Source of the DNA: Spirochaetae bacterium HGW-Spirochaetae-1
Lineage (GTDB): Bacteria > Spirochaetota > UBA4802 > UBA5550
Direction: 5' to 3'
Assembly (NCBI GenBank): GCA_002839375.1
Contig: PGXY01000007.1
Coordinates: forward strand, 248,001 to 312,000
Length of the DNA: 64,000 nucleotides
Part shown: in pieces, positions 44,508 through 61,264 of the stretch
How the letters are laid out: every line of letters starts with the position of its first letter
How positions within the stretch are numbered: the stretch's first letter is position 1
Translations under genes and position numbers: made by a program
The notes under the pieces: model-generated
What the model was told of the DNA's origin: nothing
Databases searched by the model: none
The model's input: only the letters and a program-made list of their open reading frames with translations

Positions 44508-47500
44508 ATGAGCGGAAAATTCAGGATATTGACCACGGGATTTCTCATTATTTTCGTGGCTGTCATCGTCTATTTATCCCTGAGAATTGATATACTGGAA
44601 ACCAGTTATATAAACAGGCTGGAAAAATCCACGGCCGATATAACAACGGCTCTGGAATCCTTAAAAGGAAAGAACGGTTCAGGGGAACTTACCGACACAG
44701 CTTTTCAATCCTTCGCCGCTGCCCTGTTTAAAAAATACGGCAATACTGCCATTGTGGCCGTATCGGACCATGACAACAATGTCCGGCATGTACAAAAAAA
44801 TGAATCGATCCTGAAAACTCCTGAACTTTTCGATTCCATCATGAACGATTACAAGAACAGGAAAGTGAGCGCAGACCTGAAATCCGGTCCGGCCCGACGC
44901 TACTACTCTGTTCAGAAAAATGAAACAAGAAGCGAAGAAAAATTCTACCTGTATATCAGGGACGTGGGGAAAAACCGCCTTTTTCTGGCATTTCCCTATC
45001 AGGCCGATAGAAAAATAATCACCAGGATTGCCCTGGAGGTCGCACTGCTCATTCTCATTTCCGTTATTTTAATGGCCCTGGTTTATATCGTTTCCCAGAG
45101 AAAGGAACCGAAACAGGTGACAGCGGGGCAAACGAGGGGGATACAACCGCACACTCTCCATGCCTCAGTGGCGGGAGAGCAAAACATGATTACCGGGGAG
45201 CGTCTTGTAACATCGGAATCTCTGAGCGATCATGTTTTCTCCATACTGAACAGTCTGAGCAGAGATTACGGCTCCAATTCCCTTTCCCTGTATCTTAAAA
45301 CCACGCCGGACCTCCTCTCAAAGGCCTATGAGCTCAAGGGAAAAACATTCCTCAGGATCGATTCCGGCAACTTCGATACGCTGGATCTGCGTCAGGGCCT
45401 CGGGCAGGAACTCCAGAATAATGCGGCCATGATCCTTAACGAAGGGAAAAAAATCATACTCCCCCTCCAGCACGATAATTCCCTGCTGGGCATACTGGTG
45501 GTAGAACGGGAAAATCCGCTGAACGGGCAGCAAATCCAGGATATAAGAAGGCTTCTCGGCGCAACAGCCCGGGAAATCAGTGATTTTCTGGTCATCAACA
45601 ATGTCATGATTCATTCAGGAACAGGGCTCTACAGCAAGTCCTATTTTGACATGAAGCTTCATGAATCCATTGCCATCAGCAGAAAGGGGTCAGAGCCCCT
45701 GTCTGTGATGTTAATATCCTGCATTCCAGCGGATGTACAGCTTACCGATTCGCAGAAAAACAACGTTTACAGGATAATCGCCCCTTCGATAAAGGAACAC
45801 CTGGCTGCCCGGGACATCGTGGCCGTTTACAATGAAAACCTGGCCCTTCTCCTCCCGGGCACAGGCTCGGACAGGGCTTCAGAGCTTACGGGGATACTGG
45901 AGAACTCTCTTTCCAGGTACAGGCTGAAAATCGATACGGGCAGTTTTCTCAATATTTCGGTACGTTCAGGGTCGGCTTCGACGGACACCACAAGGAAGGG
46001 CAAGGACCTTGTTATGACCGCCATGAAAAACCTCTCCATGGCCGCTCAAAAACAGCCCGATGGAAAGACACTGCCCACCACGGTCCAGGCCGTGGAAAAA
46101 GCACGTCCCGATGAACGCATCCACCCGGAATCTGACACCGGCATGGATGAGGGTTCTCTGAAAAAAAAAAGTGAACGTCGTTTTAAAACATCCATCGGCC
46201 TGAAGCTCATCAGTATAATCTCACTGATAATACTGGCGTCACTTACCTCCATGAGCATCATAACCACAAAACTTTTCAGAACCGACAACGAAATCAGGAT
46301 AAAGGAAAGCAACCACAAGATATCGGAAATAACCGCACTCAATATCAGGACCGATTTCACCTCCATCATCGAAAAAAGCATGATCATTACCCGCTCCATG
46401 ATAGACGAGGGGGTCACGCAGGATGGGAACCAGTTCCTGGTACAGCGCTTTTTCTCCAACGACCAGGACACCCTTTTCATAGGACTGGCCGGAATGAAAA
46501 ATGGGACCCTGGAGTTAAACAGGTCGCTGTATAACACCGCCCTCACTGATAAAAACGGTATATCGCAGAATTCTATTTCCACGGCTCTTATGGGTGAACA
46601 GGAACAGTTCCTCAAGAGCTTTAATCTTCAGGAAATCGTCCACAATGTCTCGCCCCACTTCAGTATTCCCGTGATAGCCATAAGCGTCCCCTATATCAAA
46701 AAAAGCGAATCATCGGCGGAATCCATCCTCATTATCATGGTCCATGGCGACAGGTTCAACCGCGCCGTCAGCAACCCCGGCATAACCAAATCATTCATTG
46801 TCAACGGCTCCGGCGAGCTCATCGCCCACTACAACGCATCACTGGTTTCGGCCGGTGTGAGTTTCCGCCAGTTTCCCATTGTAAAGCTCATGATGACGAG
46901 TCCCGTGGACAACGGGCAAACGCGCTATAATGATGAAAAGAATATATACTACCTGGGGTCCTATAAAAAAACGGGTTTTGCCGGCACCGGCGTCATCTCC
47001 ACGGTGCAGGAAGACAAGGCCTTTGAGGCCGTAAACCAGATCCAGCGCCGCAACGCCTTCATTACGGTAATTGTTCTCAGCGCCGCTATCCTCATCGTTT
47101 ATTTCTTCGCAAAAACGCTGACGGGCCCCATCAAACGCCTGGTGAAAGCAACACGCCAGATAGAACAGGGCAACTTTGATATTGATATCACTAGTAGCTC
47201 AGGTGACGAGATAGGCATGCTGACGGAATCATTTATAAACATGGGAAAGGGACTCTCGGAAAGAGAAAAAATCAAGGTGGCTTTCGGCAAGTTCGTCAAT
47301 AAGGAGATAGCCGATAAGGTGCTCCGTGATGAGATCAAGCTCGGAGGCGAACGCAAGACTGTTGCCATTTTCTTCTCCGACATACGGTCCTTCACTTCCA
47401 TATCGGAGAAGCTGGAGCCGGAAGAAGTTGTGGAATTCCTGAATGAATATATGACCCGCATGGTGGACTGCGTGAACAAAACAAACGGTGTGGTCGACAA

Positions 47501-48047
47501 ATTCATCGGCGACGCCATCATGGCCACATGGGGCGCCCCTGTCTCCCACGGCAATGACACGGAAAACGCCATAAACGCAGCCCTGATGATGCGTGAATCG
47601 CTGCAGGACTTCAACAGGGAACGGGGCGGTCCCAAAAAACCGGTCATCAAAATAGGGTGCGGAATCAACACCGGCCCCGTACTGGTGGGACAGATCGGTT
47701 CTCATGACAGGATGGAATATACAGTCATAGGAGACTCGGTTAATCTTGCTTCCCGCGTAGAAACACTCAACAAGCCCTTCGGCACCGATATTCTCGTATC
47801 GGAGGAATCGTATAAACTGGTCAAAGATATCTTCACTATGGAGAGAATGCACGACATTAAGGTCAAGGGCAAATTTGAGACGCAGAAAATCTATGCCGTC
47901 CTGGGCCGCAGGGACGATCCACACTGTGCAGGCTCCCTGGGAGAACTGCAGAGCCGGCTGGGCGTCGATGTTTCCTCCCTGCCCTCCTTTGATCCCGAAG
48001 CGGAAGAGGAAAAATTTCAGATCCTGTCTAAAAAAAGTGAATCATGA
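44508..48047 (+). CDS. Multi-domain membrane class III adenylate cyclase with degenerate GGDEF-like module
   Basis: 1179 residues. Membrane helix 1 (about 7-25), extracytoplasmic region (26-165), helix 2 (about 168-198), a GAF-like domain (about 215-365), a GGDEF-like fold (about 370-530) whose GGDEF site reads NENLALLLPGTG and is therefore catalytically dead. Then helix 3 (about 562-590), a Cache-like sensor (591-845), helix 4 (850-872), HAMP (872-925) and a cyclase catalytic domain (about 950-1130). VAIFFSDIRSFTSIS and VDKFIGDAIMATWGAP carry the two metal aspartates, and MEYTVIGDSVNLASRVE the threonine typical of class IIIb adenylate cyclases. It appears to be two sensors joined in one chain. 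The stop overlaps the FecR gene (ATGA). Confidence 0.88.
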   Translation: MSGKFRILTTGFLIIFVAVIVYLSLRIDILETSYINRLEKSTADITTALESLKGKNGSGELTDTAFQSFAAALFKKYGNTAIVAVSDHDNNVRHVQKNESILKTPELFDSIMNDYKNRKVSADLKSGPARRYYSVQKNETRSEEKFYLYIRDVGKNRLFLAFPYQADRKIITRIALEVALLILISVILMALVYIVSQRKEPKQVTAGQTRGIQPHTLHASVAGEQNMITGERLVTSESLSDHVFSILNSLSRDYGSNSLSLYLKTTPDLLSKAYELKGKTFLRIDSGNFDTLDLRQGLGQELQNNAAMILNEGKKIILPLQHDNSLLGILVVERENPLNGQQIQDIRRLLGATAREISDFLVINNVMIHSGTGLYSKSYFDMKLHESIAISRKGSEPLSVMLISCIPADVQLTDSQKNNVYRIIAPSIKEHLAARDIVAVYNENLALLLPGTGSDRASELTGILENSLSRYRLKIDTGSFLNISVRSGSASTDTTRKGKDLVMTAMKNLSMAAQKQPDGKTLPTTVQAVEKARPDERIHPESDTGMDEGSLKKKSERRFKTSIGLKLISIISLIILASLTSMSIITTKLFRTDNEIRIKESNHKISEITALNIRTDFTSIIEKSMIITRSMIDEGVTQDGNQFLVQRFFSNDQDTLFIGLAGMKNGTLELNRSLYNTALTDKNGISQNSISTALMGEQEQFLKSFNLQEIVHNVSPHFSIPVIAISVPYIKKSESSAESILIIMVHGDRFNRAVSNPGITKSFIVNGSGELIAHYNASLVSAGVSFRQFPIVKLMMTSPVDNGQTRYNDEKNIYYLGSYKKTGFAGTGVISTVQEDKAFEAVNQIQRRNAFITVIVLSAAILIVYFFAKTLTGPIKRLVKATRQIEQGNFDIDITSSSGDEIGMLTESFINMGKGLSEREKIKVAFGKFVNKEIADKVLRDEIKLGGERKTVAIFFSDIRSFTSISEKLEPEEVVEFLNEYMTRMVDCVNKTNGVVDKFIGDAIMATWGAPVSHGNDTENAINAALMMRESLQDFNRERGGPKKPVIKIGCGINTGPVLVGQIGSHDRMEYTVIGDSVNLASRVETLNKPFGTDILVSEESYKLVKDIFTMERMHDIKVKGKFETQKIYAVLGRRDDPHCAGSLGELQSRLGVDVSSLPSFDPEAEEEKFQILSKKSES
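45686..45699. repeat. GGGGTCAGAGCCCC element inside the cyclase gene
   Basis: Complete 14-bp copy of the dispersed element (reverse complement of 63301-63314), encoding part of RKGSEPLS within the degenerate GGDEF-like domain. Confidence 0.55.
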
Positions 48048-51697: not shown

Positions 51698-54121
51698 ATG
51701 AATTTCAAAGAAAAACTCCTGACGCCGGAACCAATTATCATAGACGGTGGGATGGGCTCCCTGCTCTTCCAGAAAATCCCGGGCTACGCGGGGTCCTTTG
51801 AGCTCCTTAACGTAGAAAAGCCTGAAATTCTTCAGGATATTCACCGCCAATACTTTGAAGCGGGGTCAGAGCTGGTGGAAACCAACACCTTCGGCGGCAG
51901 CATCATCAAGCTTGCTGAATATGGCCTGGACCATCGCTGTGCAGAGATCAACGAAGCAGGCGCCGCCCTGGCCCGCAAGGTAGCCGATGAGTATAACGGC
52001 TTCGTGGGAGGCTCCGTAGGTCCCACGGGAAGGCTCATCGAACCCATGGGAGAAACCCCGGCGGAAGAAATATACAAGTCCTACGCGGAACAGATGATCG
52101 GCCTGGAGCGGGGCGGAGCTCATGTGATCGCCATCGAAACCATGAATGACATCCAGGAGGCGAAGCTGGCCCTCATGGCTGCCCGGGACAACACGTCCCT
52201 GCCGGTCATCTGCAGCATGACTTTTGAGGAAAACGGGAAAACCATGACGGGAACCGACATGCTCACGGCTTTTTCCACCCTGTCAGAGTACGGCGCCCAA
52301 GTAGTGGGAGCCAACTGCAGCATGGGCCCTGCCGCCATGGTGAAAATTTTCCAGGATAACATACAGGCCCTCTCGCGGCTGGGAATCCCTCTCAGCGTCT
52401 GGTCCAATGCCGGGCTTCCCGAGATGATCGACGGACGCACGGTGTACCGGCTCTCGGCCGATTCCTTTGCCGCATCCTCCCTGGAGCTGGCCGATATGGG
52501 CGTCAAGGTAATAGGCGGATGCTGCGGAACCACACCGGAGCACATCGCGGCCCTGAAAAAGGCCGTATCGGGAAAAACCTTTTCACCGCGCCGGTATGAA
52601 CGCTCATACAGTTACATCACGAGCAGAAGCAAAGTGCTGGACCTGGAAAAACACCGGGGGCTCATTCTCCTGGGCGAACGGCTCAATCCCACGGCACGCA
52701 AGAAATTCGCCGAGGATCTCCGGGAGGGACGCCAGACCTTCCTGCGCGCCGAATCGCGCAAGCAGGTAGAAGAAGGCGCCCATATACTGGACATCAATGT
52801 TGGCGTTCCCTCTATCGATGAAACGACGGCAATGAACCGATCCATTATAACGCTCAGTTCCACCGTGGACGTGCCCCTCATGATTGACTCAGATAATGCT
52901 GAGGTCATCGAACGGGCGCTCCTGACCTATCCGGGGATACCAATCGTCAATTCCATCAACGGAAAGGAAAAGAGCATCAGGACCGTTATTCCCCTTTTAA
53001 AGCGATTTGGCTGTTTTGTCGTGGCCCTGTGTCTTGACGACTCGGGCGTACACCAGGATGCTGAAAAACGTATCGCCGCCGGCCAGCGTCTTCTGGATAC
53101 GCTTCATTCCGAAGGCATAGACCTGAGCCGTGTTTTTGTGGACCCGCTGATCCTGGCCGAAAGCGCCGAACCGGGCAGCGCCCTGGAAACGCTAAAAGTT
53201 ATTGAATATTTTTCAAAAAAGGGTATCAAAACCTCCATCGGCCTCAGCAACATATCCTTCGGCCTGCCCCAGAGAAAACACATCAATACCGTGTTCCTCA
53301 ACCTGGCCCTGGCCAGGGGACTCACGGCGGCCATCATCAACCCCTCGGCTGTGCGTATCATAGACCAATACAGTACCGAGGAGCAACTCGCCCTGGAATT
53401 CCTGGAAGGCAGTGATCCCGGCGCAGCCCGGTACATTGCCCATTTCCGTGAATCATCGGCGGTGGAAAGCGGCGCATCCCCGGGTTCGGCGGCACAGAGG
53501 AACAGTATCGAACAGATATTTTATGCCGTGGTTGAAGGTAATGTCGATGATATTGAAGAACAGGTACGGACGGCGCTGAAGGAGCATGATCCGCCATCGA
53601 TCATGAACCAGGGCCTGCTCAGGGCTCTGGAAAAAGTGGGAGAGCTCTACAGCACGGGGGAATATTTCCTCCCGCAGATGATTGCCTCGGCCAATACCAT
53701 GAAAAAAGGCTTTAATATCCTGAAGCCCCTTCTGGCGGGAGAATCGGCGGAGAAGCGGGGAAAGGTCGTCATATGCACGGTAAAGGGCGATATTCACGAT
53801 ATCGGGAAAAACATCGTGGCCATGATGATGGAAAATCACGGCTTTGAGGTCCGGGACCTGGGCAAGGATGTCCCCGCTGAAACAATAATCCAGGCGGCCA
53901 GGGATATCAGCGCTGACCTTATCTGTCTCAGCTCCCTGCTTACCACAACCATGAATGAAATGAGGAATATCAGCGAACTTCTCAAAGAAGCAAAGCTCGA
54001 TATTCCCTTGCTCGTGGGCGGCGCCGTGGTTAATGAAGAATATGCGAAATCGATTGGCGCCCATTACGGAAAAGATGCCGTTGACGGTGTTAACAAGGCC
54101 AAGTCGCTCATGGCCCGATGA
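51698..54121 (+). CDS. metH: Cobalamin-dependent methionine synthase lacking the reactivation domain
   Basis: 807 residues. The homocysteine-binding domain (about 1-290) has IIDGGMGSLLFQ, the zinc cysteines in VVGANCSMGP and GGCCGTTPEHI. The pterin-binding domain (about 315-580) has LLGERLNPTARKKFAE, HILDINVGVPSIDE and INSINGKEKS. The B12 cap and Rossmann domains (about 600-807) contain GDIHDIGKNIVAMMM with the cobalt-ligating histidine of DxHxxG. It ends there, about 400 residues short of E. coli MetH, without the AdoMet-binding reactivation domain. Such short forms need a separate reactivase. It methylates homocysteine from methyl-tetrahydrofolate. ATG 51698 follows GAGGTAGACC. Confidence 0.88.
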   Translation: MNFKEKLLTPEPIIIDGGMGSLLFQKIPGYAGSFELLNVEKPEILQDIHRQYFEAGSELVETNTFGGSIIKLAEYGLDHRCAEINEAGAALARKVADEYNGFVGGSVGPTGRLIEPMGETPAEEIYKSYAEQMIGLERGGAHVIAIETMNDIQEAKLALMAARDNTSLPVICSMTFEENGKTMTGTDMLTAFSTLSEYGAQVVGANCSMGPAAMVKIFQDNIQALSRLGIPLSVWSNAGLPEMIDGRTVYRLSADSFAASSLELADMGVKVIGGCCGTTPEHIAALKKAVSGKTFSPRRYERSYSYITSRSKVLDLEKHRGLILLGERLNPTARKKFAEDLREGRQTFLRAESRKQVEEGAHILDINVGVPSIDETTAMNRSIITLSSTVDVPLMIDSDNAEVIERALLTYPGIPIVNSINGKEKSIRTVIPLLKRFGCFVVALCLDDSGVHQDAEKRIAAGQRLLDTLHSEGIDLSRVFVDPLILAESAEPGSALETLKVIEYFSKKGIKTSIGLSNISFGLPQRKHINTVFLNLALARGLTAAIINPSAVRIIDQYSTEEQLALEFLEGSDPGAARYIAHFRESSAVESGASPGSAAQRNSIEQIFYAVVEGNVDDIEEQVRTALKEHDPPSIMNQGLLRALEKVGELYSTGEYFLPQMIASANTMKKGFNILKPLLAGESAEKRGKVVICTVKGDIHDIGKNIVAMMMENHGFEVRDLGKDVPAETIIQAARDISADLICLSSLLTTTMNEMRNISELLKEAKLDIPLLVGGAVVNEEYAKSIGAHYGKDAVDGVNKAKSLMAR

Positions 54122-54444: not shown

Positions 54445-54996
54445 GTGAGACGATCAATTCTGCTATTCTTGTTACCATTCATTGTATTTTCATACCTGTT
54501 CTTTCTTATTTCCCAAACGGCATGCGACGCATTCAGAGCTCCCAGGCCGCAGAAAGAACTCCCCTTCAATCATAAATCGCATGTTACCAAGTATGGCGCA
54601 GAGGATTGCACCATGTGCCATGGTTACTATGCTGATGGCCGCTTCAAGGGAGTACCCACGGTCGCCGAGTGCGTCCAGTGTCACGACAGAGGAGGCGAAG
54701 TAACCGGTGATCCCGAAACACCGAAACGCAAGCCCTTCTTCGACAGCTACAAGGACACTGATAAACCCTGGGGTGCCTACGCGACACAACCCGATCTGGT
54801 CTACTTCAGCCACGAGGTTGTTATGACTGCCAAATATGAAGACGGCAGACTCAAGGCGCGATGTGGTTCATGTCACGGCGATAAAGCCGGTTCCATGACT
54901 ACAGAGATGATAAAAGGCAAAATGCTCATGGGTCAGTGTATGGACTGCCATACCGCATTAAAACTCAGCAATAAATGTATGGTTTGCCACGACTAA
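54445..54996 (+). CDS. Membrane-anchored pentaheme cytochrome c
   Basis: 183 residues from a GTG with AGGAG upstream. One N-terminal hydrophobic helix (LLFLLPFIVFSYLFFLI) anchors or exports it; TACDAF after the helix could be a relaxed lipobox. Five c-type heme sites CxxCH are present: CTMCH, CVQCH, CGSCH, CMDCH, CMVCH. Additional histidines (NHKSHVTKYG, SHEVVM) fit class III/c7-like bis-histidine hemes. It precedes genes for a molybdopterin-family subunit, a ferredoxin and an NrfD-like subunit, the order seen in Qrc (where the cytochrome is hexaheme) and resembling the ActABC core of alternative complex III. It probably passes electrons between periplasmic carriers and the complex. Confidence 0.88.
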   Translation: MRRSILLFLLPFIVFSYLFFLISQTACDAFRAPRPQKELPFNHKSHVTKYGAEDCTMCHGYYADGRFKGVPTVAECVQCHDRGGEVTGDPETPKRKPFFDSYKDTDKPWGAYATQPDLVYFSHEVVMTAKYEDGRLKARCGSCHGDKAGSMTTEMIKGKMLMGQCMDCHTALKLSNKCMVCHD

Positions 54997-55029
54997 TCAT
55001 GAAACTTAGCAAGAGGAGTATTTGAATCC

Positions 55030-56958
55030 ATGAAGAAAATAGAACGCAAAGAACTTTTAATGATGACCGGCGGGGCAGTCGTTGGTGGTCTTACGGGATA
55101 TGTGTTGTCAGGAGCCCCGTTTCTGATGTTTCAGGACCTGGCCGAATGGACCCAGGACCAGTATGTGCCCCTCAAAGGAGAAATTAAACTTCTCCAGAGC
55201 ATATGCCAGTCCTGCACGACCAAATGTGAAATTTCCGTACGGATGGTTGCTGACAGGGCCGTAAAGGTTGAAACTTCAAATGCCGCCTGTCCCCTGGGAC
55301 AAGCTTCACTGCAATTGCTGTATCATCCCGAACGTATAGACAAACCGTTGAAAAGAACGGGAAATAAAGGTAAGGGCCGCTTCGTCCCCGTATCATGGGA
55401 ATCAGCCATGGCGGATATTTCCGGCAAAATGAATGCCCTTGTAAAAAATAACAAAAAGGACGCCATTGCCGCCATCAACAAAGATATCAACCTCTCATCT
55501 GAACTTCTGGAGAAGCTGATAACATCGACGGGCAGCACAAATGTCTTTTATGAATCATCCCTCAACGCCCTGACCATGTCGGCCCTGGGCGGAGTAGTGG
55601 ATTACGACTTTAACAAGGCCGACTATGTTCTCAGTTTCGGCGCCAAGCTTTTCGAAGGTTGGGGAGTGCCCGGTGCCATGAACAAGGTCCTGGCCGCCTG
55701 GCCCGGCAGCGGCAAAAAACTGGTACAGGTCGACACGAACTGCTCACGCACTACGTCCCTGGCCGATGAGTGGGTGCCGGTAAAAGCAGGTACGGAGCCT
55801 GTTCTGGCCATGGGTATTGCCAATTATCTTATTAAAGAGAAAAAACTCATCTCGGCCGGCGAAGGATTCGCCAAATGGGCGCAATATGTTTATCAGTACG
55901 ACATGCCTACAACGGCAAAATTAACCGGTGTTTCCGAGGACAGAATCAAGGCGCTGGCCGAAGCATTCTACGGAGCCAGGAATCCCATGGCTGTTGCAGG
56001 CCGGGGAGCCCATGGTGTTTCATCTTCTGCATCGGAAATCATTGCCGTGTACGCCCTTAACACCCTGGTGCGATCCACATCAGTGAGCCTGAAACAATAC
56101 ACCGGCATGGGAACGGGAAAAAATCCCGCCGGTATTGATGATTTTATTAAAAACGGCAATTTCGAGCTCCTCTTCGTCAACGAGGCCGATCCCGTTTACA
56201 AAAGTGTTCTGGGAAAAGACCTGGCGGCAAAAATGGAAAAGGCCTTTGTTGTTGCCATGATGCCCCTGATCAATGATACGGCTCTCTACGCCGATTATGT
56301 GCTTCCTTCACTCACCTTCCTGGAGACCCTGCAGTCCGATGGTCAGACGGTGTTGAAGCCTTATGCGAGCGCAAAACATGCCGGTGATATCATCATCGAG
56401 CTGGCCGGCAAAGTAGATGCGGCAAAAGGAGCTTTCCCCTGGACCTCGTATCTCGATGCAGTAAAACAGGCGGGGAATACCCGCGGCGTGGCCGGCTTTT
56501 CATTCAAAGTTGACAAGCTGAAAGAGCAGCTCTCAGGATTTAAAAAACAGAAAGCCAATGCCGAGTATCCGCTGTCGCTGATTCCCGTTGAAATGCCCCT
56601 TGTGGGAGACGGTGATGGTATGGCTTTCCCCTATGTTCTGAAAAACATCGATTCTGACAGCTTTATGCTGGGAAAAATGAAAGTTCTCATGAACAAGGCA
56701 ACGGCTAAAAAAGAGGGAGTTTCTGAAGGAAGCTCCATAAAAATCATCTCTGAACGCGGAAAAATAGGCAGTGTCAAGGTTCATATAACCGATACGATTG
56801 CTCCCGATGTTGTTGCCGTTCCCCTGGGATTCGGCCATATGGCATACACCAAGTATGCGCAAAAAAAGGGAGTCAATCCCAAGGAAATTATGGCTGCTGA
56901 TATCGATCCTGTAACCGGCGCAGCTAACTGGTGGGGAACCAGGGTAAAAATCAGTTAA
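55030..56958 (+). CDS. Molybdopterin-oxidoreductase family subunit (QrcB/ActB-like)
   Basis: 642 residues. An N-terminal region with ERKELLMMTGGAVVGGL looks like a Tat signal with RK in place of RR. The iron-sulphur cysteines are C59, C62, C66 (CQSCTTKC) and C87. MopB-fold segments follow: PVSWESAMADI, the ALGGVV region, WVPVKAGTEPVLAMGIA, VNEADPVYKS, YADYVLPSLTFLET. The C-terminal dinucleotide-binding domain ends PVTGAANWWGTRVKI. Near residues 160-180, where catalytic family members carry the metal ligand, I see FYESSLNAL and no obvious Cys. In Qrc and Act complexes the homologous subunit lacks molybdenum and is structural, and this one may be the same. Confidence 0.83.
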   Translation: MKKIERKELLMMTGGAVVGGLTGYVLSGAPFLMFQDLAEWTQDQYVPLKGEIKLLQSICQSCTTKCEISVRMVADRAVKVETSNAACPLGQASLQLLYHPERIDKPLKRTGNKGKGRFVPVSWESAMADISGKMNALVKNNKKDAIAAINKDINLSSELLEKLITSTGSTNVFYESSLNALTMSALGGVVDYDFNKADYVLSFGAKLFEGWGVPGAMNKVLAAWPGSGKKLVQVDTNCSRTTSLADEWVPVKAGTEPVLAMGIANYLIKEKKLISAGEGFAKWAQYVYQYDMPTTAKLTGVSEDRIKALAEAFYGARNPMAVAGRGAHGVSSSASEIIAVYALNTLVRSTSVSLKQYTGMGTGKNPAGIDDFIKNGNFELLFVNEADPVYKSVLGKDLAAKMEKAFVVAMMPLINDTALYADYVLPSLTFLETLQSDGQTVLKPYASAKHAGDIIIELAGKVDAAKGAFPWTSYLDAVKQAGNTRGVAGFSFKVDKLKEQLSGFKKQKANAEYPLSLIPVEMPLVGDGDGMAFPYVLKNIDSDSFMLGKMKVLMNKATAKKEGVSEGSSIKIISERGKIGSVKVHITDTIAPDVVAVPLGFGHMAYTKYAQKKGVNPKEIMAADIDPVTGAANWWGTRVKIS

Positions 56959-56979
56959 GGAAAGAATGAGGTATTGATA

Positions 56980-57801
56980 ATGAAAACAAGCAACTCCAAG
57001 ATGAAAAGAAGATGGGGGATGGCCATAGACCTTGATAAATGCAACGGTTGCGGGCAGTGCTCCATCTCCTGTGCACAGGAAAACAATATGCCTATTTTCG
57101 AAGATGATTCCGATGTTCCCAAAAGGGTGTCTTTCCTTGATCTGATGAAAGTAACCAATGACAGGGACGCGAGTTATCCCGACGTAAAAGTGGCATTTAT
57201 TCCGAAAATGTGCCAGCAGTGTGAAGGCAACGACCCTCACAATCCCACACCTCCCTGCGTTTCGGTTTGCCCCGCAGTGGCAACGGACGTAGGAGACGAC
57301 GGAGTGGTGAGCCAGATATGGTCACGCTGCATCGGCTGCCGGTACTGCCAGACAGCCTGTCCTTACGAGGCCAGGGCCTTCAACTGGTGGAAGCCAAAAT
57401 ACGAATCAACTTTTAAAAAATCCCTCAATACCGATGTATCCATCGCATCAAGGGGAACAATTGTTAAATGCACCTTCTGCAGTCACATCTGGAAACGTGA
57501 ACGCGACAAGGCGGCGGCTAACGGCGAACTGGATATCAATGCCGTTACCTACTCGCCGGCATGTGTGACATCATGTCCCACGGGTGCCATGGTTTTCGGC
57601 GATCTCAATGATCCCGCATCGGAAATATCCATGCTTTCCAGGGATAAGAGGGCTTTCAGGCTCGTACACACCATAGATGAAAAGTCACCGGAAGAGCAGA
57701 AGAAGTTAATGAAAATCAAAAACTATCCGAATCCCAAAGTTTACTATCTCAGCAGTCAGAAGTGGATCCGCGATATGATGCGGTTTAACTCAGGTAAATA
57801 A
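56980..57801 (+). CDS. Four-cluster ferredoxin subunit (QrcC/ActB-like)
   Basis: 273 residues from ATG 56980 (GAGG eight nt upstream; a TTG two codons earlier is less likely). Four cysteine groups are readable: CNGCGQCSISC, CQQC with CVSVCP, CIGCRYCQTACP, and CTFC with CVTSCP. This matches the DmsB/HybA-type subunits with four iron-sulphur clusters found between the MopB and NrfD subunits of Qrc, Act, Psr and related complexes. No signal peptide, so export would need the MopB partner's signal (hitch-hiking). It wires electrons between the MopB/cytochrome part and the membrane quinone site. Confidence 0.92.
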   Translation: MKTSNSKMKRRWGMAIDLDKCNGCGQCSISCAQENNMPIFEDDSDVPKRVSFLDLMKVTNDRDASYPDVKVAFIPKMCQQCEGNDPHNPTPPCVSVCPAVATDVGDDGVVSQIWSRCIGCRYCQTACPYEARAFNWWKPKYESTFKKSLNTDVSIASRGTIVKCTFCSHIWKRERDKAAANGELDINAVTYSPACVTSCPTGAMVFGDLNDPASEISMLSRDKRAFRLVHTIDEKSPEEQKKLMKIKNYPNPKVYYLSSQKWIRDMMRFNSGK

Positions 57802-57812
57802 GGAGAAAACCC

Positions 57813-59075
57813 GTGAATGTAATATCAAAATTTTTCAATGACATGAAAGAACTCTATAAGAGTTATCCCAAAAATATCAGGATCACACTGCTGGTACTCA
57901 TTGCACTGGTTTGTGGATTCGGTATATTCGCAATCCAGATCCTCTTCTGGGGACTGGGGTATACGGACATGAATAATGTCTTCACCTGGGGAAACTGGAT
58001 TATCGGCGACCTGGGCCTGGTGGCCCTGGGAGGCGGAGCCTTTTTTACCGGTTTCTTCCTCTATATTTTCAGAGTGGAAAAGCTGGAACCTATAATCAAC
58101 TCAACGGTGCTTATTGGTTTCATGTGCTATCTTTTCACCTTTGTGTTTCTTCTTTTTGACCTGGGACAGCCCCTGCGATGCTGGTTCGGTTTTGCCTATC
58201 CCAACTGGGGTGAGCATCTCATGCCGACCTCCATGCTGACAGAAGTATTCTTCTGCTTGTCGGCATACTTCTGCATCCTCTGCGTCGAGCTCGTCCCGGT
58301 AGCACTTCGACACAAGTTTCTCGACAACGTCCCCGTTCTCCATACCATCGGCCACTACATGCACAAGCTGATGTGGATCATGGCTGCGGCTGGTACCTTC
58401 CTTTCATTCTTCCACCAGGGATCACTGGGCGGCGGCATGTGGGACGTGCTCTACGGAAAACCAGGCTGGTACAGGCCTCATCACCAGTACTTCTTCCTGG
58501 CGATCGTTGCAGCAACGGCGGGTGGAACATCCTTCATGACACTGTGCCCCTATATCGCAGGGAAAATAATGAAGAAAGAAGTTATGCCGAAAGAAACCTA
58601 TTGGACGCTGACAAAAATTTCCGGCGCCATGTTCATCTTCTACACCCTTTTCAGGACCTATGACGTATACTCCATGGCGGCAAAATATGTTCCCATGGCA
58701 GACCGCAAGTTTACCGATATTTATGGCGGTTATTACGGCTTATGGCTCGTTGTTCTGGAATTTATATTTTTGGCAGCCCCGGTGGTTCTGCTCAATTTAA
58801 AAAAATTCCGCGAACAGGAAAAATTTATGGCCATCGGTATAAGCGGCGGAGTACTCGCCATCATTACCAGCAAGCTGGAAGTCATGCTCCATGGTTTCTC
58901 GGTGCCTAACTTCCCCTGGAGACCCTTTGCCGCATACAACCCCACATTCCAGGAATGGATTATAACCCTGGGCTGTTTCGCCACCATGATTCTGATCTAT
59001 ACGGTATTTGCCAAATGGTTCAGACTGTTTCCTCACCTCGATCATGAAGGTCATGGCGAAGGGGAAGCTCATTAA
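57813..59075 (+). CDS. NrfD/PsrC-like membrane subunit (QrcD/ActC-like)
   Basis: 420 residues from a GTG with AGGAG upstream. About ten hydrophobic helices. GGGAFFTGFFLYIFRV, FLLFDLGQPLRCWFGFAYPNW and LSFFHQGSLGGGMWDVLYGKPGWYRP (in parts) carry the acidic/His/Arg positions typical of the NrfD family quinone-site subunits, in the longer 10-TM form seen in ActC and QrcD. It anchors the complex and exchanges electrons with menaquinone. The protein ends with a His-rich tail (HLDHEGHGEGEAH). Last gene of the operon, followed by a terminator. No actD, actE or actF homologue follows, so the complex is a four-subunit form. Confidence 0.9.
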   Translation: MNVISKFFNDMKELYKSYPKNIRITLLVLIALVCGFGIFAIQILFWGLGYTDMNNVFTWGNWIIGDLGLVALGGGAFFTGFFLYIFRVEKLEPIINSTVLIGFMCYLFTFVFLLFDLGQPLRCWFGFAYPNWGEHLMPTSMLTEVFFCLSAYFCILCVELVPVALRHKFLDNVPVLHTIGHYMHKLMWIMAAAGTFLSFFHQGSLGGGMWDVLYGKPGWYRPHHQYFFLAIVAATAGGTSFMTLCPYIAGKIMKKEVMPKETYWTLTKISGAMFIFYTLFRTYDVYSMAAKYVPMADRKFTDIYGGYYGLWLVVLEFIFLAAPVVLLNLKKFREQEKFMAIGISGGVLAIITSKLEVMLHGFSVPNFPWRPFAAYNPTFQEWIITLGCFATMILIYTVFAKWFRLFPHLDHEGHGEGEAH

Positions 59076-59102: not shown

Positions 59103-59136
59103 AAAAAAAGGTGCCCCCAGAGGGTACCTTTTTTTA
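59103..59136 (+). terminator. Rho-independent terminator of the redox operon
   Basis: AAAAAGGTGCCC (59105-59116), 5-nt loop CCAGA, GGGTACCTTTTT (59122-59133) with one G-U pair, then more T. It lies 30 nt after the NrfD-like stop. The remaining stretch 59137-59371 has no recognisable gene; it must contain the acyltransferase promoter. Confidence 0.88.
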
Positions 59137-60373: not shown

Positions 60374-61264
60374 TTACTTTATTCCATTCTGGAGCCTGCA
60401 GGCCTTCACCGTATTTTTCAGGAGCATGGTGATGGTCATGGGCCCTACCCCGCCCGGCACGGGCGTTATGGCTGAAGCCTTTTTTGAAACCCCTTCGAAA
60501 TCCACATCACCCACCAGTTTTGTTTTACTGCTGTCATCGGGATGAGGAATTCTATTTGTTCCCACATCAATTACCATGACACCATCCTTTACCATATCGG
60601 CGGTCACGGTATTGGGTCTGCCGGCAGCCACCACCAGGATGTCGGCCTGTTTCGTATAATAGCCGATATCTTGTGCCGCGGTATGACATACGGTCACAAT
60701 GCAGTTTGCACGATCATTTTTCTGCACCATCATATTTGCAATGGGCTTCCCAACGATATTGCTTCTTCCAACAACCACCAGGTGTTTTCCCTTTATGTTC
60801 GGGTCAGTCCGCGCGATGAGTTCCTGAATACCGAAAGGAGTACAGGGACAGAAACAATCGTCATCACCTATCACGATCTTCCCCACATTGACGGGATGGA
60901 AACCGTCCACATCCTTCATGGGATCTATCCTGTTGATGACCTTTTCTTCGTTTATATGTTTTGGAAGGGGCAGCTGCACCAGGATTCCATTAACGTCGCC
61001 GTTCCTGTTCAGATCATCTACCAGGGCCAAGAGCTTTTCTTCACTGGTATCACTGGAAAGAGTATATTCATACGACCTGATACCCAACTCCTCACAGCCT
61101 TTTTTTTTGTTTCTGACATAAATTGCCGATGCAGGGTCATCCCCTACCAGCACAACTGCCAGTCCCGGAACCAGATTCCTGTTTTTTTTCAGATCAAGAA
61201 CATCTTCCTTAACCTCATTCCTGATTTCTTCCGACACCTTTTTCCCATCAATAATTAACGCCAT
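60374..61264 (-). CDS. folD: Bifunctional methylenetetrahydrofolate dehydrogenase/cyclohydrolase
   Basis: 296 residues. VLVGDDPASAIYVRNKKKGCEELG holds the catalytic tyrosine and lysine (YVRNKKK), GILVQLPLPKHI and DVDGFHPVN follow, VVGRSNIVGKPIANMM is the NADP loop and TPVPGGVGPMTITML the C-terminal hallmark. FolD interconverts 5,10-methylene-, methenyl- and 10-formyl-tetrahydrofolate, feeding purine and formyl-Met synthesis and, via MetF, the methionine synthase found 7 kb away. It starts divergently from ilvD. Confidence 0.96.
   Translation of the reverse strand: MALIIDGKKVSEEIRNEVKEDVLDLKKNRNLVPGLAVVLVGDDPASAIYVRNKKKGCEELGIRSYEYTLSSDTSEEKLLALVDDLNRNGDVNGILVQLPLPKHINEEKVINRIDPMKDVDGFHPVNVGKIVIGDDDCFCPCTPFGIQELIARTDPNIKGKHLVVVGRSNIVGKPIANMMVQKNDRANCIVTVCHTAAQDIGYYTKQADILVVAAGRPNTVTADMVKDGVMVIDVGTNRIPHPDDSSKTKLVGDVDFEGVSKKASAITPVPGGVGPMTITMLLKNTVKACRLQNGIK

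Follow-up and report, generated by a model that had tools for sequence, protein, structure and literature searches.

Qrc is a membrane complex of sulfate-reducing bacteria that passes electrons between hydrogen- and formate-handling enzymes located outside the membrane and the quinones within it. In the excerpts of the literature cited here and below, QrcD is called restricted to Deltaproteobacteria (PMC6303296; PMC8076601), QrcB is described as cofactor-free (PMC13059093) and Blakebacterota are reported to have Qrc (PMC9727166), so that the occurrence of Qrc beyond Desulfobacterota is not wholly new. Among the matches listed from the open-licence literature, there is no report of Qrc in Spirochaetota. 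The four-gene operon described here occupies positions 54445-59075, on the + strand, of a 64,000-nucleotide stretch (the window) of contig PGXY01000007.1 of Spirochaetae bacterium HGW-Spirochaetae-1, whose genome comprises 5.2 Mb in 14 contigs; coordinates of its open reading frames (ORFs) are window positions. It encodes, in this order, a pentaheme cytochrome, a protein of the MopB fold, a four-cluster ferredoxin and an NrfD-type membrane protein (A-B-C-D), separated by gaps of 33, 15 and 11 bases. We consider, with good confidence, that the product is an electrogenic, periplasm-facing cytochrome c:menaquinone oxidoreductase of the Qrc kind.

Each of the four proteins has the corresponding Qrc subunit as its best NCBIfam match, with 87.9 bits for QrcA (cut-off 180), 298.6 for QrcB (cut-off 440; PhsA is the next-best family at 191.2), 276.8 for QrcC (cut-off 400) and 305.4 for QrcD (cut-off 570). 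This bears out the Qrc-like organization, in the order QrcABCD, that a preliminary description of the window had proposed. Since the equivalog cut-offs are unmet, the complex is classed as a Qrc-like deep sister variant and not as Qrc sensu stricto. A phmmer search of QrcD against solved structures returned no match.

The variant is common among the relatives of the source organism. Strong QrcD-family matches (E < 1e-70) occur in 33 of the 46 genomes belonging to the Spirochaetota order of the source organism, and none occurs in 13 genomes from elsewhere in the phylum. With the window QrcD as query (E < 1e-100), in a phylum-wide search of 296 genomes in which unlisted ones were taken as outside the order, 33 genomes of the order are recovered and none of 250 other genomes, 17 of which give weak matches (E 1e-7 to 1e-3). 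QrcD above the cut-off is also found in genomes named Candidatus Abyssobacteria (G301) and Terriglobia (G302). The complete operon, in the same gene order, is present in 14 of 17 stretches from this and related genomes, the window being one of the 14; two of the remaining stretches are cut by contig ends and the third holds an orphan NrfD gene. Of 26 named spirochaete loci, 20 likewise have the complete operon and six are cut by contig ends. The recurrence of this order across the source genome and its relatives is therefore more than chance, and a deep sister lineage of Qrc, common in an uncultured order, would separate the complex from a setting of sulfate reduction only. The source genome carries a second, orphan QrcD paralogue (L051:9408-10712; G000 contig C3:104416-105591), which is 48% identical, keeps the four essential residues discussed below and adjoins a TetR-like regulator (named by reading). 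It was rejected as a second Qrc, the other three genes not being in the surrounding 19 kb.

The NrfD-type subunit falls with QrcD. In an IQ-TREE analysis of 66 proteins, the 14 spirochaete QrcD sequences and the orphan paralogue form the sister group of 25 other QrcD, and the joint branch and both of its halves are supported at 100/99. HybB, HmcC and formate dehydrogenase (FDH)-linked types lie next to Qrc, and ActC, ActF, DsrP-like and MopB-linked types are further out. The MopB tree is weaker: the spirochaete QrcB form one clade (100/100) and 24 other QrcB group at 65/88, and a quick tree of 39 rows puts the spirochaete proteins and Qrc on one side of a branch with an SH-like approximate likelihood ratio (SH-aLRT) support of 97, the spirochaete clade falling inside Qrc beside L264 with a support of 44. 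Approximately unbiased (AU) tests were run on reduced sets (51 of the 66 NrfD rows and 39 of the 49 MopB rows) from which near-duplicates and long branches had been dropped. A grouping of the spirochaete NrfD-type proteins with ActC is rejected (p 0.032), and that of spirochaete QrcB with ActB is not (p 0.26). Alternative complex III (ACIII) is represented by two operons only, with two ActC, which limits the power of these tests. The comparison of both subunits with reference sets, suggested in the preliminary description, thus places the complex with Qrc through the NrfD-type subunit, MopB alone allowing a grouping with ActB as well.

These trees bear on the earlier proposal of an intermediate between Qrc and ACIII, that is, a menaquinol:cytochrome c oxidoreductase feeding an oxidase or another high-potential acceptor. 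Such an intermediate would find support in the unrejected ActB grouping, in five hemes as in ActA and in the haem-copper oxidase matches of 15 of the 44 genomes of the order that were searched. We nevertheless regard it as very improbable: besides the position of the NrfD-type protein within the Qrc clade, both ActC lack the proton-path Asp and Tyr, the MopB and iron-sulfur (Fe-S) proteins are not fused here as they are in ActB, and the source genome has neither a match to the ActB signal TIGR04519 nor a haem-copper oxidase (cytochrome bd was not searched for). As the preliminary description had stated, actDEF are absent beside the operon; no actD/E/F-like gene was read between 59075 and 63297, the rest of the genome not having been searched for them. 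Two genomes, named Terriglobia (G302) and Ignavibacteriae (G300), contain both an ACIII-type and a Qrc operon (loci L260, L261, L136 and L117). Additional FeS-NrfD-MopB modules, with MopB proteins of about 830 and 1050 residues, occur in the relatives' loci L187, L190 and L206.

The number of hemes does not separate the two complexes. The QrcA-like protein holds five CxxCH motifs (CTMCH, CVQCH, CGSCH, CMDCH and CMVCH), as first described; the contrast then drawn with six hemes in Qrc does not stand. The QrcA cut-off is passed in 39 of 198 genomes searched, and exactly five motifs are found in 30 of the 30 such loci that were fetched, so that heme count is no discriminator between Qrc and ActA and was rejected as such; the likeness to ActA on this point is shared by all Qrc examined. 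Five motifs are also present in 39 of 39 non-spirochaete QrcA from named loci, and those of the Qrc loci align one-to-one with the spirochaete motifs. Twenty of 21 spirochaete QrcA have all five, and L083 has four plus one CX3CH. Published figures are six hemes (PMC8076601, Table 1) and 'penta/hexaheme' (PMC6303296, section 11). The motif count does not reproduce six in the proteins compared, among which the N. vulgaris QrcA sequence was not included. Immediately after the N-terminal hydrophobic helix, the QrcA-like protein has Cys27 (window 54523-54525), found in 20 of 21 spirochaete QrcA and in 2 of 39 others; the only one missed by the script, L070, has an upstream start. This conserved anchor cysteine may be lipidated or may have another role.

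The residues of the quinone site argue for a function like that of Qrc. In Nitratidesulfovibrio vulgaris, Y113 of QrcC and S138, D70, Y110 and Y150 of QrcD are essential, and D120, R358 and E413 are not (PMC13059093). By spacing and alignment, D66, Y106, S140 and Y152 of the window QrcD correspond to D70, Y110, S138 and Y150, and the four are conserved in 14/14 spirochaete and 25/25 other QrcD, a 6-residue insertion preceding the Ser in the spirochaete proteins. Tyr124 of the QrcC-like subunit, in the motif CIGCRYC, is the counterpart of the essential Tyr113, and the Tyr of CxxCRYC is kept in 24 of 26 spirochaete QrcC (the remaining two sequences are fragments) and in 49 of 50 others. As all five essential residues are kept, the spirochaete complex retains both the quinone site and the proton path of Qrc. 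In both ActC compared, the D70 site is occupied by Phe and the Y110 site by Val. The four QrcD residues are also found in 8 or 9 of 9 HybB/HmcC-type proteins and therefore mark the quinone reductases of this branch and not Qrc alone.

The MopB subunit could also suggest a catalytic molybdenum or tungsten enzyme of the kind that reduces polysulfide, thiosulfate, tetrathionate or arsenate. PhsA is its next family match, and a structural search with its AlphaFold model, which has the MopB fold (18 sequences; mean predicted local distance difference test score, pLDDT, 78; predicted template modelling score, pTM, 0.82), gives Arr and Psr among the top matches. The catalytic enzymes score Z values from 28.1 downward and the ACIII ActB chains 26.6, 25.6, 25.4, 23.6 and 22.9, and this overlap makes the fold search non-decisive. 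The window protein also keeps a complete CxxCxxxC...C motif, like 13 of the 22 spirochaete proteins, and an Fe-S cluster is therefore possible there. The cysteines are degenerate in the other 9, however, and the Lys or Arg that all 9 catalytic homologues compared carry two residues past the fourth Cys is absent from the window protein (C-P-L-G), from 21 of 22 spirochaete QrcB (L077 has Arg) and from 24 of 24 other QrcB. The trees separate the groups, and the genome has a PhsA-like enzyme of its own (479.7 of 694 bits). A catalytic role thus seems the least credible of the readings weighed here, and nothing places the complex among the polysulfide or tetrathionate reductases, a placement that the preliminary description had named as one that would refute its view. 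The missing catalytic Lys/Arg and the degenerate cysteines would fit a QrcB-like subunit that serves as a scaffold, without proving it.

The same subunit starts with a putative, non-canonical signal for the twin-arginine translocation (Tat) pathway. The reading of ERKELL in place of RRxFL is confirmed, and R-K appears in 19 of the 22 spirochaete QrcB with a readable N-terminus, the other 3 having R-R, which is found in 24/24 other QrcB compared. Some other MopB proteins compared have R-K too (ActB of L261; L191; L192), and in the source genome R-R motifs are borne by the hydrogenase small subunit and the formate dehydrogenase. Tat signals with a single Lys can work. ERKELL is a real feature, usual for the clade and not a lone exception.

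The preliminary description had left the electron donor unnamed, and gene linkage now points to a hydrogenase. In L062 (G022) and L063 (G031), which belong to one family, a tetraheme cytochrome, a maturation protease (named by reading), the small and large hydrogenase subunits and qrcABCD follow each other on one strand; hydrogenase, tetraheme cytochrome and Qrc are here linked directly by their genes. These loci are the only two with a hydrogenase beside qrc among 86 Qrc loci scanned, with flanks of up to 10 kb that are in many cases truncated. The source genome carries the same set, with a tetraheme cytochrome of 127 residues, on contig C3. Its hydrogenase large subunit passes NF033181 (672.1 bits, cut-off 600) and does not pass the HysA model (545.6 against 780). 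Its top PDB matches are 4kl8 and 1cc1, [NiFeSe] enzymes of Desulfomicrobium, and [NiFe] and [NiFeSe] chains of the Desulfovibrio type rank just after them; a Cys is read at the site of the selenocysteine (Sec) of [NiFeSe] enzymes. Across 44 genomes, with G039 scored as lacking Qrc because it holds fragments only, strong QrcD and a full hydrogenase occur together in 30, Qrc alone in 3 (G032, which is 95% complete, G040 and G043), hydrogenase alone in 3 (G004, G007 and G013) and neither in 8 (Fisher p 1.2e-4, without correction for relatedness). A HybB-type gene adjoins the hydrogenase in G004 and G007.

The small tetraheme cytochrome passes the Pfam cut-off for class III cytochromes (PF02085), a family matched in 37 of 44 genomes, in some of them by QrcA itself. 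The c3 of Desulfovibrio is soluble. Among ten small three- or four-heme genes listed (e.g. L223:11261-11644, L233, L235-L239 and L062), nine have a Cys near a hydrophobic start, and the hydrogenase-linked cytochrome may therefore be a membrane-tethered lipoprotein. A supercomplex can be built in N. vulgaris from Qrc, c3 and the [NiFeSe] hydrogenase (PMC13059093).

A further probable donor in the source genome is an FDH-N-type alpha protein whose reading frame continues through a TGA. It carries an R-R signal and is accompanied by an Fe-S subunit; no cytochrome b gene was seen beside its gene. Two MqnA/MqnD-type genes are present. Electron transfer flavoprotein (ETF) and acyl-CoA genes were checked in 650,010 bases, about 1/8 of the genome, window included. 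This sample contains EtfA/EtfB with an adjoining FixC-like flavoprotein, which has no Pfam match to ETF:quinone oxidoreductase (ETF-QO), FAD_binding_4 and CCG-domain proteins, one acyl-CoA dehydrogenase and several weak acyl-CoA-ligase matches (22-28% identical). A Wood-Ljungdahl setting was not used, since CdhC matches are weak in the source genome (60.8 and 45.6 bits), though strong in some relatives.

It could be argued that the main partner of the same complex is neither hydrogenase nor formate dehydrogenase, and that large multiheme cytochromes serving extracellular or interspecies transfer take this place. The source genome has 15-heme, 8-heme, octaheme and TmcA-like cytochromes, G032 has Qrc and no full hydrogenase, and multiheme cytochromes with conductive pili are reported in fatty-acid-degrading Spirochaetota (PMC7382037). 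The clusters of hydrogenase, cytochrome and qrc, together with the co-occurrence of Qrc and hydrogenase, make such a partnership unlikely, if less so than either of the two readings of another complex considered above. The inspection of the genome that the preliminary description advised has thus yielded both a hydrogenase and multiheme cytochromes. One of these is an octaheme cytochrome of the tetrathionate-reductase family (L231:6532-10397); after it come a 7-heme protein that has a cytochrome b domain of the thiosulfate-reductase type and then two small membrane-protein ORFs. At L232:5799-7358, the TmcA-like tetraheme cytochrome (79.4 of 114 bits) comes after a small Fe-S protein and an ORF resembling a membrane protein, and a MetF-like ORF follows.

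The proposed mechanism for the complex of the Qrc kind is as follows. Electrons from the periplasmic [NiFe] hydrogenase would reach the small, probably lipid-anchored tetraheme cytochrome, and a Tat-exported, Sec-containing formate dehydrogenase is a probable further donor. The tetraheme cytochrome would reduce the pentaheme QrcA-like subunit, and the four Fe-S clusters of the QrcC-like protein would relay the electrons to the QrcD-like membrane subunit, whose quinone site would lie on its periplasmic side. The QrcB-like subunit would act as a scaffold with no working molybdenum centre. The protons for quinone reduction would come from the cytoplasm via D66, Y106 and Y152, with one charge moved per electron. 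Through this cytoplasmic supply, the reaction would be electrogenic without pumping. An operation like that of Qrc is well supported, and as to membership the complex is a deep sister variant. Direct evidence here comes from the genes and their kinship, from the residues conserved, from the linkage of hydrogenase, cytochrome and qrc, and from the menaquinone genes. Activity, electrogenicity and cofactor content would follow by analogy with the work on N. vulgaris (PMC6303296; PMC13059093).

Several observations weigh against the assignment. All four subunits fall below the NCBI equivalog cut-offs, at 0.49-0.69 of the cut-off scores. The AU tests do not reject a clade of spirochaete QrcD with HybB/HmcC types (p 0.173), nor, as given above, one of spirochaete QrcB with ActB, and the window QrcB retains the complete cysteine motif. 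R358, non-essential in N. vulgaris, is Lys in 13 of 14 spirochaete QrcD. As to the partners, qrc and the hydrogenase lie on different contigs of the source genome, their co-occurrence across genomes is not phylogenetically independent, and NCBIfam does not identify the tetraheme cytochrome as a c3 of the Desulfovibrio type, its best match being cytochrome c7 (41 of 120 bits).

The complex could work in either sense. In the forward sense it would conserve energy from H2 or formate, and in the reverse sense it would spend proton motive force to produce H2 or formate from menaquinol. Menaquinone lies near -74 mV and the proton motive force is near 170 mV. By an estimate from these values, reverse running would reach about -240 mV, which would suffice only if H2 or formate were kept very low. 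Qrc has an important part in producing H2/formate during syntrophic growth (PMC13059093), and related lineages have been proposed as syntrophic fatty-acid oxidisers (PMC13248872; PMC7382037), which makes reverse operation a plausible, if bold, reading; the term 'Qrc' does not occur in PMC7382037. We tentatively suggest, as a possibility held with less than even confidence, that in this order the complex runs mainly backwards: menaquinol from acyl-CoA and hydroxyacid oxidation would give up its electrons to Qrc, which, powered by the proton motive force, would hand them to the tetraheme cytochrome, and this in turn to a periplasmic hydrogenase and formate dehydrogenase, neither of which has quinone subunits of its own. 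If true, syntrophic fatty-acid oxidation in Spirochaetota would have Qrc as its step of reverse electron transport. The machinery of the step from menaquinol to formate or H2 is an old question in syntrophy, and the operon offers a candidate route for it in digester spirochaetes (class UBA4802, families UBA5368 and UBA5550; PMC13248872; PMC7382037). It also hints at possible routes of hydrogen and formate production or use in the uncultured anaerobes of this group.

The features of the locus are listed in the table. The terminator scan did not flag the hairpin that follows the operon, and the first ORF on the 3' side is acyltransferase-like by reading. A metH-like gene upstream (window 51698-54121) and folD downstream (60374-61264) flank qrc in many relatives from several families. 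Further upstream lies a large adenylate-cyclase-like ORF (window 44508-48047), and a weakly similar ORF (25-32% identity) directly precedes qrc in several relatives.

Table. Features of the qrc-like operon and its 3' end, in window positions
Feature	Position	Strand	Remarks
QrcA-like pentaheme cytochrome c	54445..54996	+	183 aa, GTG start; hydrophobic N-terminal anchor followed by a Cys conserved in the clade; NF041781
QrcB-like MopB-fold protein	55030..56958	+	642 aa; NF041783; AlphaFold model with MopB fold
Tat-like motif ERKELL (RK, not RR)	55042..55059	+	read in the sequence; the MopB N-terminus is MKKIERKELL
QrcC-like four-cluster ferredoxin subunit	56974..57801	+	275 aa from TTG; ATG at 56980; NF041782
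QrcD-like NrfD-family membrane subunit	57813..59075	+	420 aa, GTG start; NF041784
Hairpin into T-run, possible terminator after the operon	59103..59136	+	found by eye

Compared with the QrcABCD of Desulfobacterota (N. vulgaris), the spirochaete complex shares the gene order, the five aligned CxxCH motifs, a separate QrcC, the loss of the catalytic Lys, the (I/E)W(T/S)Q motif that follows the QrcB signal in most members, the D70/Y110/S138/Y150 set of QrcD with Y113 of QrcC, and the link, by way of a tetraheme cytochrome, to a periplasmic hydrogenase. It differs in its shorter QrcB (642 residues against 699-849 in the others compared), the RK motif of the Tat-like signal, the insertion in QrcD, the replacement of R358, mostly by Lys, and the extra anchor Cys of QrcA. 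With ACIII (ActABCDEF) it has in common a pentaheme cytochrome, a MopB-like protein, a ferredoxin module and an NrfD-type protein, whereas ActB is a fused MopB-FeS protein that corresponds to two genes here, ACIII has extra genes downstream of actC, and ActC falls in a separate clade of the NrfD tree and, in both proteins compared, lacks the Asp and Tyr of the Qrc proton path. The NrfD complexes of the HybB/HmcC type are tree neighbours of Qrc and share its four residues, but have no QrcA/QrcB pair; a joint clade with them stands at p 0.173 by the AU test. The QrcABCD of Blakebacterota (PMC9727166) is likewise found outside Desulfobacterota, largely without Dsr, and has been proposed as a link from H2 or formate to menaquinone; it belongs to another phylum, and the excerpt of that source mentions no hydrogenase-qrc cluster of the kind found in the relatives described here.

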